Assembly (NCBI GenBank): GCA_016778045.1 | Contig: JADHQG010000012.1 | Coordinates: forward strand, 1-37,579 | Source: Luminiphilus sp. | Lineage (GTDB): Bacteria > Pseudomonadota > Gammaproteobacteria > Pseudomonadales > Halieaceae | Reading direction: 5' to 3' | Length of the DNA stretch: 37,579 bases | Shown here: positions 21,406 to 27,651 of the stretch, piece after piece | How positions within the stretch are numbered: the first letter of the stretch is position 1 | Layout of the letters: each line of letters begins with the position of its first letter | Translations under genes and position numbers: made by a program | Notes under the pieces: generated by a model | Databases searched by the model: none | What the model was told of the DNA's origin: nothing | Seen by the model: the letters and a program-made list of their open reading frames with translations, nothing else

Positions 21406-21888
21406 TTAAGCAGCCTTACCGAACTTGGACTTCAGATCGTCGAAGCGCGACTTCGCCTTCTTCATCTGTGCTTCCAGCTTTGACCGGTCAGCCAGCGAAT
21501 CGATTTCCAAGTCAGCCAGCGCTTTCAGTGCTTCTTTCTCAACCGCCGTTCCGCGCTTGATCAGCGACTTATACAGATCCTCGGCCTGCTTGCGGCGCTC
21601 GGTCAGGCGGCTCTGCGCCTCGTCGACCTGCTCTTGCAAGCTGGAGAACTGCTCCAGTACCTGATCGTACGCTTTGCCGTAGACACCGAGACCCGCGAGC
21701 AGGGCATTGCGACCCGTATCGATCGCCTTGGGGCGCGCTCTCGTCTTGGCTTTAGTGGTCGCTTTTGCCTTGGTTTTGGCCGCCGGCTTCTTCTTTGCCG
21801 GCGCCTTCCTAGCTTTAGCGGGTGCTTTCTTCACCGCGGCCTTCTTGGTGGCAGCCTTCGGTGCTGCTTTGGTTTGGGCTTCTGCCAT
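21406..21888 (-). CDS. Phasin/PhaF-like polyhydroxyalkanoate granule-associated protein with N-terminal H1-like Lys/Ala/Pro domain
   Basis: MAEAQTKAAPKAATKKAAVKKAPAKARKAPAKKKPAAKTKAKATTKAKTRARPKAIDTGRNALLAGLGVYGKAYDQVLEQF... followed by coiled coil; LLAGLGVYGK resembles the PhaF/PhaI WLAGLGAYxK motif. ATG 21888 has upstream AGGAGA. Confidence 0.8.
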   Translation of the reverse strand: MAEAQTKAAPKAATKKAAVKKAPAKARKAPAKKKPAAKTKAKATTKAKTRARPKAIDTGRNALLAGLGVYGKAYDQVLEQFSSLQEQVDEAQSRLTERRKQAEDLYKSLIKRGTAVEKEALKALADLEIDSLADRSKLEAQMKKAKSRFDDLKSKFGKAA

Positions 21889-22043
21889 GATGTTTCTCCT
21901 CGTTGAAATATCGGACAACGGGGCAAAGTGTGGCGCCCAAATTTAGAATCCGCCCTCTAATAAACGAGGTGGCAGTGGCAATTTTCCACAACGCGCCATA
22001 ATATGACATAAGCAGTGCCAATTACTTGGCGGGAGGGGGGGGT

Positions 22044-23087
22044 GTGCCAGCCGTAAAAATCATCTCAACGTTAGTAGCCCTCATTGCCACACTCTTGCTG
22101 GCAGCTTTTTTTGTATTGGTGGGTGATGGCGAACGCATTACGCCTGATGGCGAAGGCGTCGTTGCTCTCGAGGTGGGCGATTTTGAGGCGTTCGCAATGC
22201 CTGATTATGCGAGCGCTGTCATCAGTGATGCTTACAAGAGTTATTTCATAGAAGTCGAGCCAGGGATAAAAATTCATGTGCTGGAAGTCGGTCAGGGGTA
22301 CCCGGTCTATCTTCAGCACGGCAATCCGACTACAGGCCTGCTTTATCGCAAGGTCGCTGCATCGCTACCTTTGGATCGCGTCAGGGTCATCATGCCGACC
22401 ATGGTAGGTCTTGGTTACTCCACTAAGATCCCTGCAAGCGAACACACCCTCGATAACCACATGCGCTGGATGAATCGCGCGCTAACGACCCTCGACCTGA
22501 CCGAAGCCGTATATGTGGGTCAGGATTGGGGCGGGCCCGTGGGTATGGGCGCCCTGTCCCTGTCACCGGGGATACTAAAAGGCGCCGTCGTGATGAATAC
22601 CGGATTCAGAGCGCCTCGGGCAGCTATGGACCTCAGTCGTGCGCACGCGCTGGTTAAAACGCCGCTGGTCGGGGAGTTTGTAGTGGAGGCAATGTCCTCG
22701 TTTTTCTTCAAGCGTTTGGCCGGTGTGCAGGGTGATCCGACGACAATGCCGCCGGAAGTAATGGATCTTTATCGTCGTCCCCTCGAAGACAGCGGCAATG
22801 GCAAGGCGACGCTAGCGCTCATGCGAATGGTCGCAGACGGACCTGAACATGCCAGCTCGCCTGCGCTGCGGGATATTGAGCACTACGTTGAGGGATTAGA
22901 TATTCCGGCAGAGCTGGTTTGGGGAATGAACGACCCCATTCTGGCTAGAGGCCTGCCCGTCATGCAGAGCATGTTCCCAGCCGCACCGGTGACCGAGACC
23001 GAGGCCGGACATTTTCTGCAGGAGGAGGTGCCCGACGTCATCGCAGCAGCCATCATGCGCATTGTGGATGCCGCGCAGAAAAAGTGA
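22044..23087 (+). CDS. Alpha/beta hydrolase, haloalkane dehalogenase-like, with N-terminal TM/signal anchor (GTG start)
   Basis: N-terminal TM VKIISTLVALIATLLLAAFFVLV; HGNPTTGLLYRKV, VGQDWGGPVGMG (nucleophile Asp-Trp), WGMNDPILA, EAGHFLQEEVPD. Confidence 0.85.
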   Translation: MPAVKIISTLVALIATLLLAAFFVLVGDGERITPDGEGVVALEVGDFEAFAMPDYASAVISDAYKSYFIEVEPGIKIHVLEVGQGYPVYLQHGNPTTGLLYRKVAASLPLDRVRVIMPTMVGLGYSTKIPASEHTLDNHMRWMNRALTTLDLTEAVYVGQDWGGPVGMGALSLSPGILKGAVVMNTGFRAPRAAMDLSRAHALVKTPLVGEFVVEAMSSFFFKRLAGVQGDPTTMPPEVMDLYRRPLEDSGNGKATLALMRMVADGPEHASSPALRDIEHYVEGLDIPAELVWGMNDPILARGLPVMQSMFPAAPVTETEAGHFLQEEVPDVIAAAIMRIVDAAQKK

Positions 23088-23327: not shown

Positions 23328-24518
23328 ATGACTGACGACAGCAAAACCAATCGGCTCACCCGCCGCCGGCTTATGGGTTCGGCGCTCTTCACTGCTGTGG
23401 GGTTGGTGGTCTGCTTTTTAGTCCTCGTGGGTAAGCCTGCAACGCAACCCACTCAATTTCCCGAGCCCCGGCGCCCACTAGTCGATGTCATCGTTGCAGC
23501 ACCCTCTGATCACAGCATATCGGTGCGAACTCAAGGTACTGTCGAACCGGTTCGGCGGGTCGGATTGGTGGCACAGGTCAGCGGCAAGGTCGAGTCGGTT
23601 AGCGACCGGTTTTTGGATGGTCGCTTCTTTTCAGCAGGGGATATTCTGCTGGAGCTCGAAAAAGCTGACTATGAATTCGCTATTGCCAGAGCCCGTGCGC
23701 AGGAGGCAGCCGCTGCACAGCGTGTCGCCGAAGAGCGGGGTCGCAACCTTCAGGCGCAGCGAGAATGGCGGGACCTGGGGACGACCGAGGCGAATGATTT
23801 GTTTCTGCGCAAACCTCAGCTGCGTGCGGCCGAGGCGTCATTAGCGGCGGCTCAGGCAGATGTTGCGGCGGCTGAGCTTGCATTGCAGCGCACTACAGTG
23901 CGTGCCCCCTTCGATGGTCGGCTCGAAAAGAAGTCGGTTGATTTGGGCCAGTTTGTTGCTCCCGGTACGGTGCTGGCACAGATCTACGCCACTGACCGTG
24001 TTGAGGTGCACCTACCGATTAGTGATTCGCAGTTGGCGCTTCTGGAATTACCTTTGTTTGAGACGGCGGTTGAAACGTATCCAGACGTGACGTTGAGTAC
24101 CCGTTTTGGCGGCAAGCGCTGGCAGTGGCAGGGCCAGATCGCTCGGGTTGAAGCCAGCATCGACCGTGACAGTCGCGTGACGTTCGCGATCGCCGAAGTA
24201 GCTAACCCCTTTAGTCATACGGGCTCTCAGAGACCGCCGTTGACGCCGGGCCTGTTTGTCGAGGCGAGCATTAGTGGTAAGCCTATTCAGCAGTCGGTTG
24301 AATTGCCGGCGACTGCCTTGCGGGGCGACAACACGGTGTTACTGGTCAACGAAAACAGTCGGCTGGAGCGTTTCCCCGTCGAGTTGCTCCGCCGTGAACA
24401 GGACCTCGTTTGGGTGCGAGGTATTGAAGCGGGCTCTAACGTCGTTGCTGAGCAGAGCAGCTTGCTGGCCGCGGGCGCAGCGATTGAGGTTGCTAGCGTG
24501 AGATCCAGTGATGGCTGA
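23328..24518 (+). CDS. RND efflux periplasmic adaptor (membrane fusion protein)
   Basis: TM anchor then VRTQGTVEPVRRVGLVAQVSGKVESVSDRFLDGRFFSAGDILLELEKADYE, hairpin, TTVRAPFDGRLEKKSVDLGQFVAPGTVLAQI. Confidence 0.94.
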   Translation: MTDDSKTNRLTRRRLMGSALFTAVGLVVCFLVLVGKPATQPTQFPEPRRPLVDVIVAAPSDHSISVRTQGTVEPVRRVGLVAQVSGKVESVSDRFLDGRFFSAGDILLELEKADYEFAIARARAQEAAAAQRVAEERGRNLQAQREWRDLGTTEANDLFLRKPQLRAAEASLAAAQADVAAAELALQRTTVRAPFDGRLEKKSVDLGQFVAPGTVLAQIYATDRVEVHLPISDSQLALLELPLFETAVETYPDVTLSTRFGGKRWQWQGQIARVEASIDRDSRVTFAIAEVANPFSHTGSQRPPLTPGLFVEASISGKPIQQSVELPATALRGDNTVLLVNENSRLERFPVELLRREQDLVWVRGIEAGSNVVAEQSSLLAAGAAIEVASVRSSDG

Positions 24519-27500
24519 CAAGCCCGGCTTGTTGGGCTGGTTTATCTCCAATCCTGTCGCTGCCAATCTTTTGATGGTGGTGTTGGTGATTGGCGGCCTT
24601 TACAACATTCCCGGGCTCGATAAGCAGTTTTTCCCCACCCCGGTTATCGACCGGGTCAGTATCTCGATGCCTTTCCCGGGAGCGAGTCCTCGAGAGGTCG
24701 AAGAGCAGATCTGCGTTCGCATCGAGGAGGCGATCCACGACCTCGACGGCATCAAGGAGATACGCTCGACGGCCTCGGAAGGCATGGGGCGGGTTGTCGT
24801 CGAGGCCCTGACTGGCTACCCCACGCAGCGTTTGACCAACGAGATCAAGACGCGCGTGGACGCCATCACTACCTTTCCCACGGATGCCGAGCGCCCAGTG
24901 GTCACCGAGCTGATCTATCGCCACTTGCTCGGTATTGTGCAGTTGGCGGGCGACCTCGACGAGTGGGAGCTTAAGGAGCTGGGAGAGACATTACGGGATG
25001 ACTTGGCACGCCAGCCTTGGATTTCTGTGGTTGATCTGGTTTCACCGCGCCGGTACGAGGTATCTATCAACGTCTCCGAGATTGACCTGCGGCGACACAA
25101 TCTTGCCTTCGATGACGTGGTTAGGGCGATTCAGTCCGCGTCTCTTAATCTGCCTGCTGGCGCGATTAAGGGCAGCGACGGTGACATTCGCGTGCAAACG
25201 CGAGGTCAGGCGTACTACCGAGAGGATTTTGAGCGCATCGTGTTGTTAACGGCGCGGGACGGGACACAGATTTATCTTGGCGAGGTCGCTACCGTTGAAG
25301 ATGGCTTTGAAGACGTCGACACGGTCAGTAGCTTTGATGGAATGCCAGGTCATGGGTTGTATGCCTACGTCACCACTAACCCCGACGTCGTGCAGTCCTC
25401 CCTCGTCATCAATGAGTGGGTGGCGGAGCAAACTCAAAATCTTCCCGAGGGCGCGACGCTGTCGTTTTGGCGAGACGCGGCCGTGCCGTTTAAGGGACGG
25501 GTCGAAACGCTGTTGAAAAATGGTATCGGTGGCTTGCTGCTGGTGTTTTTGGTGTTGGTGTTGTTCCTAAGGCCCGCAGTGGCTGTCTGGGTATCGATTG
25601 GTATTGCAGTGGCGTTTCTCGGCGGATTCTTCTTGCTGCCATACACCGGTGTCGGACTCAACATGATTTCGCTGTTCGCCTTTCTCTTAGTGCTGGGCAT
25701 TGTGGTGGACGATGCGATTATTGTCGGCGAGTCCATTCATACCTCCCAGTCTAAGGGAGTGGAGGGAGAAGACGCCGCTTTGTGGGGTGTGAGGGAGGTC
25801 TTCAAGCCGGTTCTCTTTGCTGTGATTAGCACCATGGTGTTTTTTGCGCCAATGATGTTCTTGCCCGGTGAGTGGGCGCATGCCGCCAAGGGGATACCCG
25901 TAGTTGTCCTGCTGGTGCTCATGTTTTCGTTGGTGGAATGCCTCTGGATTTTGCCCGCGCATCTCTCAAGATTGGGCCCCGAAAAGCCTGCAACGCAGCC
26001 GCTACTGAAGCGCCTTGAACAGTGGCGGCACCGCTGCGCTGACTGGCTGGTGACATTTGCGCGAGAGCGTTATCGCCCGTTCCTGCAATGGGCACTACAG
26101 CACCACCTTTTAGTCGCCGGATTCTTCCTGGTGATGCTGAGCCTGAGCTTGTCGCTCTATGGTGGCGGATGGTTACGCTCGGCGTTTTTCCCCCGCATTA
26201 ATTCTGACTTTGTCGAAGCAAAAATCACGATGCCGGAGGGCGGGTCGTTCTCGCAGTCAGAGCTGGTGATGCAGAGGGTGCTAGATGCCGCCGAGGCACT
26301 GAAGTCAGACTGGAACGAGCGGCCTGAGTACCAGGACAGTCCGGCAATTGGCAGCATTCTTGGACGGGCAGACGAAAACGCCGTGGAGGTGGTGGTCGCA
26401 ACGGTTTCTGAGGGAGTGGATACCGAGGCCTTCGCTTTGGAGCTACGCGCTGATTCCGGCGCGCTGAGTGAGGCCAAAGAGATCCGCATGGACTACACCA
26501 TTCGCGATCCCGGTAAGCCCATCAGACTGGTGCTGGCTTCCAGAAAAGTTGAAGAGCTGGAAGCCCTGGCGGCGGATGTTCGCGAAGCGTTGCTCTCTTA
26601 CCCAGGGGTGTTCGACGTGTCGGACAGTTTCGATAGCCCGCGAGACGAGCTGGTACTTGAGCTGAAGCCGGCGGCCGAAACGCTGGGCATTACGCTCACC
26701 GACGTGGCGCGCCAAGTACGACAAGCCTTTTACGGCGCCGAGGCCCAGCGAATCCCGCGCGGCCGCGAGGATGTGAAGGTCATGGTGCGGTATCCGGAGT
26801 CAGAGCGGCTGGCGATTGCCAACCTGAATGACATGTACATTCGTACGCCGGGCGGTGGTGAGGTGCCGTTCGAGGCGGTCGCAGCCTATCGAGTGGAGTC
26901 CGGTTATCAGAAATTGGAGCGCCTGGACCGGCTCCGCACGCTGGAAGTAGAGGCTGATGTTGAGGCAAATGGGCCAGCGCCGAGGGCGATTGTGCAGTCG
27001 ATCTTCCGCGACTATCTGCCGAAATGGCAGCAGCAGTATCCGGACTTATTCGTCAATTTAGATGGCGAGTTGCAGGAAGAGATCGAGTTTCGGGAGGCCA
27101 CTGTTCGGCTCATGACGCTGGCCATGATGGTGATCTATGCGTTGATGGCGGTGGCATTCAGATCCTATTGGCAGCCAGTGTTGATTTTGACTGCCGTGCC
27201 GTTTGGTTTGATGGGTGCCATCTTCGGCCACATGATTCTGGGCTGGCAGGTGAGCATGTTTTCAATCATGGGTGTCACGGCCTGTGCGGGCGTCGTGGTC
27301 AACGATAATCTGGTGCTGATAGACCGAATTAACCGGCTGCGTGAACAGGGTGAGGACGTGCTGAGCGCCTTATTGCAGGCCGGTGAGGATCGGTTCCGTC
27401 CTATTATCTTGACTTCTTTGACCACCTTTGTGGGCCTGCTGCCCATCATGTCCGAGACCAGCGTTCAGGCTCAGTTCCTGATCCCCATGGTGACGTCGCT

Positions 27501-27651
27501 GGCTTTTGGAGTGCTCTTTGCAACCGGTGTCACCCTGATCCTCGTCCCCGCCCTGTATTTAATTGCGGAGGACGCCCGGTCACTGCGCCTGAGGTGGTTC
27601 GGCGGATCCGATGACCCTACAGAGCTACCTACTTCTACCAGCTCGCCCTAG
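24511..27651 (+). CDS. RND-family efflux permease
   Basis: ~1046 aa; GLLGWFISNPVAANLLMVVLVIGG, FPGASPREVEEQI, TM4 LGIVVDDAIIVGESI, TM10 GVVVNDNLVLIDRINRLREQG; overlaps the adaptor stop codon. Confidence 0.96.
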   Translation: MADKPGLLGWFISNPVAANLLMVVLVIGGLYNIPGLDKQFFPTPVIDRVSISMPFPGASPREVEEQICVRIEEAIHDLDGIKEIRSTASEGMGRVVVEALTGYPTQRLTNEIKTRVDAITTFPTDAERPVVTELIYRHLLGIVQLAGDLDEWELKELGETLRDDLARQPWISVVDLVSPRRYEVSINVSEIDLRRHNLAFDDVVRAIQSASLNLPAGAIKGSDGDIRVQTRGQAYYREDFERIVLLTARDGTQIYLGEVATVEDGFEDVDTVSSFDGMPGHGLYAYVTTNPDVVQSSLVINEWVAEQTQNLPEGATLSFWRDAAVPFKGRVETLLKNGIGGLLLVFLVLVLFLRPAVAVWVSIGIAVAFLGGFFLLPYTGVGLNMISLFAFLLVLGIVVDDAIIVGESIHTSQSKGVEGEDAALWGVREVFKPVLFAVISTMVFFAPMMFLPGEWAHAAKGIPVVVLLVLMFSLVECLWILPAHLSRLGPEKPATQPLLKRLEQWRHRCADWLVTFARERYRPFLQWALQHHLLVAGFFLVMLSLSLSLYGGGWLRSAFFPRINSDFVEAKITMPEGGSFSQSELVMQRVLDAAEALKSDWNERPEYQDSPAIGSILGRADENAVEVVVATVSEGVDTEAFALELRADSGALSEAKEIRMDYTIRDPGKPIRLVLASRKVEELEALAADVREALLSYPGVFDVSDSFDSPRDELVLELKPAAETLGITLTDVARQVRQAFYGAEAQRIPRGREDVKVMVRYPESERLAIANLNDMYIRTPGGGEVPFEAVAAYRVESGYQKLERLDRLRTLEVEADVEANGPAPRAIVQSIFRDYLPKWQQQYPDLFVNLDGELQEEIEFREATVRLMTLAMMVIYALMAVAFRSYWQPVLILTAVPFGLMGAIFGHMILGWQVSMFSIMGVTACAGVVVNDNLVLIDRINRLREQGEDVLSALLQAGEDRFRPIILTSLTTFVGLLPIMSETSVQAQFLIPMVTSLAFGVLFATGVTLILVPALYLIAEDARSLRLRWFGGSDDPTELPTSTSSP

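Follow-up and report, generated by a model that had tools for sequence, protein, structure and literature searches.

A haloalkane-dehalogenase-like hydrolase with a predicted inner-membrane anchor forms a separate clade in mostly marine bacteria

The pentad described for subfamily HLD-III of the haloalkane dehalogenases (HLDs) combines Asp-His-Asp with Asn-Trp, and in DhmeA (8OOH) it consists of N63, D129, W130, D258, and H286 (PMC10503415). The same paper describes HLD-III members as low-activity 'HLD-like' enzymes and calls the natural role of HLDs unclear; the sections covered here mention no membrane anchor for them. It also describes OleB, which shares this pentad and is a putative member of HLD-III, as mainly a beta-lactone decarboxylase. 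By literature, HLD-III also takes in DmbC, DrbA, and XcOleB.

Herein, we analyzed a 37,579-nucleotide stretch of Luminiphilus sp. DNA (the window), located on contig C79 of a 1.87 Mb, 68%-complete genome. The plus strand encodes an HLD-like hydrolase of 347 aa at 22044–23087, with a GTG start at 22044 and a stop at 23087, and direct reading places a Shine-Dalgarno-like GGGAGG (22031–22036, plus strand) 7 bp 5' of the start. Orthologues from the same genus were 58–83% identical to the product from end to end, indicating a real open reading frame. An alpha/beta-hydrolase domain with a helical cap covers residues 64–345 (22233–23078, plus strand), as assessed from Pfam (Abhydrolase_1, E 1.5e-19), AlphaFold2, and Foldseek. 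Three haloalkane-dehalogenase models of NCBIfam matched the protein at 105–116 bits; since these scores are all far under the respective cut-offs of 241, 265, and 466, which serve as naming thresholds, the hydrolase is about equally far from each model. On the minus strand, the window also encodes a 158-aa protein (21406–21882) with a K/A/P-rich, histone-H1-like N-terminus and a coiled-coil-like C-terminal half.

The first-pass annotation had predicted a complete Asp-His-Asp plus Asn-Trp pentad from four motifs, and all four were found: HGNPT (residues 92–96), VGQDWGG (158–164), WGMNDPIL (293–300), and EAGHFLQEE (320–328). When the protein was aligned with DhmeA, DhaA, DccA, and DpcA, the pentad residues lay at equivalent positions, and each fell on a pentad residue of DhmeA, in agreement with the combination described for HLD-III (PMC10503415). 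The predicted halide-stabilizing N94 (22323–22325), within HGNPT (22317–22331), aligned to N63. The predicted nucleophile D161 (22524–22526) and halide-stabilizing W162 (22527–22529), both within QDWGG (22521–22535), aligned to D129 and W130. D297 (22932–22934), the predicted catalytic acid following a late strand, aligned to D258, and H323 (23010–23012), the predicted catalytic base, to H286; all of these features are on the plus strand. In an alignment of 66 family members (54–83% identity), D161, W162, D297, and H323 were invariant, as were N185, Y243, and R261, and N94 was kept in 65 of the 66. Conservation of the predicted pentad is thus far from chance. The single exception at the Asn, L109, carries Leu, and at another locus, L004, the active site of the hydrolase reads QDWEG instead of QDWGG.

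A further hallmark of the family is Thr119 (22398–22400, plus strand), a position at which 64 of the 66 members have Thr and 2 have Ser. It stands in place of the Asp of a PDxxGxGxS-type motif found in the aligned references DhmeA, DhaA, DccA, and DpcA.

The monomer model built by AlphaFold2 from the family alignment was confident (pLDDT 93.4, pTM 0.91) and contained an alpha/beta-hydrolase core with an HLD-type helical cap. When this model was searched against the PDB with Foldseek, all 50 matches listed were HLDs, and the single-domain entries among them gave TM values of 0.79–0.87 over the HLD (first match 1cqw, 0.82; DmmarA, 0.87; AncHLD5, up to 0.86; DhmeA, 0.81). In a PDB sequence search, the best 60 matches listed were HLDs, engineered HLDs, or HLD/luciferase ancestors. 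With this predicted fold and a complete pentad, the assignment to the HLD superfamily with an HLD-III-type pentad stands.

The protein shares features with each subfamily and differs from all three. With HLD-III (DhmeA, 8OOH/8CKP), it shares the fold and cap, the aligned pentad, an acid after a late strand, and WGMxD, whereas it is only about 23% identical to DhmeA in the structure alignment, has Thr119 for the motif Asp, and adds a transmembrane (TM) anchor and a folded juxtamembrane segment. HLD-I enzymes (DccA, 5ESR; DpcA, 6F9O; DmrA, 4MJ3) share QDWGG, NTG motifs, and an Asp acid after a late strand, but they have no anchor and mostly carry HGEP where the window protein has HGNP. HLD-II enzymes (DhaA/HaloTag, LinB), the subfamily of the top Foldseek match, share an HGNPTS-type motif and the Asn-Trp halide site; however, their acid is a Glu after strand 6, a position held by the invariant Asn185 in the window protein, whose Asp297 follows a later strand. 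Group profiles scored the window protein highest with HLD-I (122 bits), followed by IIIb and IIIa (98 bits each), II (95 bits), and epoxide-hydrolase-like groups (72–77 bits).

In maximum-likelihood trees, 26 family members formed one clade with support of 100/100 on a stem of 2.1–2.9 changes per column. Four other groups (HLD-I, HLD-II, DhmeA-like, and L015-like) were each recovered as a clade that excluded the anchored family, which was nested with neither DhmeA-like nor L015-like proteins. The deep branching order shifted with the choice of outgroup, and AU tests rejected no placement of the family (joined with HLD-III, p 0.29; HLD-I, 0.34; HLD-II, 0.35; non-HLD outgroups, 0.37). The trees thus neither favor nor reject membership of HLD-III; of the earlier link to that subfamily, the pentad type held. 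The protein belongs to a clade of its own in which the HLD-III-type pentad is retained. The long stem, at more than 2 changes per site, means that the chemistry may have drifted.

That a placement with non-HLD outgroups is not formally rejected leaves room for an epoxide hydrolase or a fluoroacetate-dehalogenase-type enzyme of the same superfamily mistaken for an HLD. We consider this very improbable, as neither of the epoxide-activating cap Tyr residues is there (Met260 occupies the position of the NWYR Tyr, and no Tyr is near His201), the first motif reads HGNP and not HGFP or HGWP, and the profile and fold matches favor HLDs. The first-pass view that the protein is not of the epoxide-hydrolase type was thus supported.

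The genome scan yielded 80 loci encoding proteins 54–87% identical to the window protein. The carriers were Halieaceae, SAR86, the PS1 and OCS116 clades, Rhodobiaceae, Hyphomonas, deltaproteobacteria/Myxococcota, and Sphingomonadales-type bacteria (Erythrobacter/Porphyrobacter/Sphingomonas/Sandarakinorhabdus). The gene occurred in 9 of 37 genomes of the genus, and in 2 of 274 and 3 of 399 genomes of the class and phylum samples, each of which takes in the window's own genome. The spread of the clade is wide but sparse, and mostly marine; one carrier, Halioglobus pacificus (L065), is in culture.

A putative N-terminal TM anchor spans residues 5–26 (22056–22121, plus strand), as judged from hydropathy, a model helix at residues 3–26, and flank charges. 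Using a hydrophobic 19-mer with a Kyte-Doolittle mean of at least 1.6 as the criterion, we detected the anchor in 89 of the 90 members; the remaining one, L085, is cut by a contig end. The start of the anchor lay at a fixed spacing of 83–91 residues N-terminal of HGNP, and a conserved TRDG..TP.G.G segment followed it. The mean net charge in the family was +1.6 before the helix and −0.7 after it, which favors an N-in/C-out orientation with the enzyme in the periplasm. A periplasm-facing hydrolase domain tethered by the helix is therefore the favored prediction.

Whether the helix could instead be a cleaved signal peptide that leaves the mature enzyme soluble in the periplasm was considered in the family alignment and hydropathy profiles. 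A short, basic N-terminus ahead of a hydrophobic stretch would suit a signal peptide, and 53 of 66 members have a loose small-x-small pattern near the helix end. But this pattern is a very permissive one, no AxA is conserved where the helix passes straight into the conserved TRDG..TP.G.G motif, and VLVGDGE, the sequence of the window protein, makes a poor site. Neither a lipobox nor a conserved signal-peptidase site was present among the 66–90 members compared. Cleavage is accordingly unlikely in our judgment, and the description of the segment as uncleaved-looking was upheld. Among known HLDs, LinB is reportedly located in the periplasm although it has no signal peptide. The stretch after the anchor (residues 27–63, 22122–22232, plus strand; consensus ITRDG..VTP.G.G.V.LD.G.FEAFPLPDYA) had been called a linker of ~40 aa. 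A segment does exist there, but it is not a loose linker, being conserved and confidently folded (strands at residues 39–42 and 45–49, and a helix at 54–57).

Downstream of the hydrolase, on the same strand, lies the RND efflux pair reported at first pass (23328–27651, plus strand; a membrane-fusion protein at 23328–24518, Pfam HlyD, and a pump at 24508–27651), starting 240 bp after the hydrolase gene. The shared strand, the short gap with no terminator-like site, and the gene order kept around the nearest orthologues could point to a joint detoxification/efflux unit. However, among the 80 loci this order recurred only around the closest orthologue loci (L033–L041), and even a same-genus orthologue (in genome G009) had other neighbors. 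A partnership was therefore rejected; we rate a joint unit as quite improbable and treat the pair as neighbors outside the system described here.

Away from the closest orthologue loci, the strongest recurrent neighbor was a sulfatase (Pfam Sulfatase, E 3e-50). A sulfatase of any kind was found at 21 of the 80 loci. The expectation was about 0.03 per locus, or 2.4 over 80 loci, given 89 sulfatases in about 42 Mb of 15 carrier genomes (2.1/Mb); the enrichment is given without a p-value, as related loci among the 80 are not independent. At 19 of the 80 loci, the sulfatase lay within about 8 kb and belonged to one TM-anchored orthologue group, whose CAPSR active-site motif is intact. This linkage occurred in several arrangements at SAR86, Sphingomonadales, deltaproteobacterial/unclassified, and gammaproteobacterial loci, and in one SAR86 genome (G333) the sole sulfatase detected adjoins the hydrolase gene. 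An MBL-fold hydrolase was close by at 9 loci. In G671, a genome left out of the defining set, genes for an MBL-fold hydrolase, the HLD-like enzyme, TetR, and the TM-sulfatase lay within about 4 kb. At four loci (L064, L068, L076, and L079), at most 10 bp separated the hydrolase gene from one for a GST-like protein, and DUF1330 and TetR genes lay in that stretch too. When 95 neighbor proteins, one per cluster, were put through a mixed Pfam scan, no further dominant partner family emerged.

In Luminiphilus-like genomes, a homologous module carries an HLD-I gene in place of the anchored one, along with genes for the TM-sulfatase, a DUF1330 protein (about 60% identical), a pair of GST-like proteins, and an acyl-CoA dehydrogenase. 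Relatives of its genes stand beside the anchored HLD-like gene at SAR86/Rhodobiaceae-type loci (GST-like, about 54%; DUF1330, about 60%), with homologues at L064, L068, L076, and L079. Two different HLD-type enzymes thus occur with related sulfatase-centered modules. The HLD-I gene, of the HGQPSW type, lies at the end of the module at L193 (9326–16305 on contig C1 of G006), L196, and L198. The window genome also carries a second HLD of the HLD-I type on the minus strand of contig C48 (9463–10542; L199, 9460–10542), which scored 371 bits in NCBIfam, above the cut-off; its first motif reads HGQP and not HGEP, a variant that recurs across the genus. Within the genus, co-occurrence with the TM-sulfatase was uninformative, as 7 of the 9 genomes that have the hydrolase and 15 of the 28 that lack it contained the TM-sulfatase.

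Because the TM-sulfatase and the MBL-fold hydrolase recur nearby outside the window's genus, the enzyme would most likely help, at the cell envelope, to break down metabolites that are sulfated and/or halogenated. The analysis shows the residue equivalences, the predicted fold, the conserved anchor, the separate clade, and the gene linkage, and from these we infer the reaction, topology, and substrate class. One uncleaved N-terminal helix would tether the enzyme to the inner membrane with its domain in the periplasm. By analogy with HLDs, Asp161 would attack the carbon bearing the leaving group (SN2) and form an alkyl-enzyme ester, Asn94 and Trp162 would stabilize the leaving halide or a similar anion, and water activated by His323-Asp297 would hydrolyze the ester. 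We give about an even chance to this overall reading of a periplasm-facing HLD-type hydrolase on an uncleaved inner-membrane helix, in a separate clade and a sulfatase-linked catabolic module. Against the HLD-type part stand the low NCBIfam scores, the long stem, Thr119 for the PDxxG Asp, the low activity of HLD-III enzymes together with the other chemistry of OleB (PMC10503415), and the trees, which do not reject a placement outside the HLD subfamilies (AU p 0.37); against the module stands the window genome itself, in which the TM-sulfatase and MBL genes adjoin each other on contig C36, the HLD-I gene is on C48, and the hydrolase is on C79.

An HLD-III-type pentad is no guarantee of dehalogenation, as the low-activity members and OleB illustrate (PMC10503415), so the main rival is an enzyme that reuses the Asp-His-Asp plus Asn-Trp site in an OleB-like manner, without dehalogenation in vivo. 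Its reaction would then be to decarboxylate or open a lactone, or some other chemistry of the ester type, with a substrate at the membrane that resembles a lipid, terpenoid, or steroid. The P450, BVMO, SDR, acyl-CoA dehydrogenase, CoA-transferase, and GST-like genes found near various loci fit the breakdown of such substrates, but the halide-stabilizing Asn94 and Trp162 are strictly kept with one Asn exception, and the loci of the family show no recurrent oleACD-type cluster (oleA, oleC, and oleD were not recurrent at the 80 loci and were absent from the window). We regard this rival as a serious possibility, though a somewhat doubtful one.

A membrane-tethered HLD that faces outward would, to our knowledge, add a new architecture to the HLD family. 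The open-access literature searched, which leaves out most subscription papers, yielded no paper on HLDs with a membrane anchor or on a module of an HLD and a sulfatase. A bolder proposal, which we put forward as improbable, is that the clade is a fourth HLD subfamily, anchored in the membrane, which acts together with the TM-sulfatase and the MBL-fold hydrolase in the periplasm, on a pathway for compounds both sulfated and halogenated (algal chlorosulfolipids, for example) in bacteria of the surface ocean (SAR86, Halieaceae, PS1/OCS116, and Sphingomonadales). With the natural role of HLDs described as unclear (PMC10503415), the recurrent context of sulfatase, MBL-fold hydrolase, GST-like, and TetR genes allows the substrate class to be guessed and tested. 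The clade also lies in a blind spot: a recent published use case of HLD mining filters out candidates for which transmembrane helices are predicted (PMC13355053), and such a filter would remove the anchored clade and may explain the gap in the literature.
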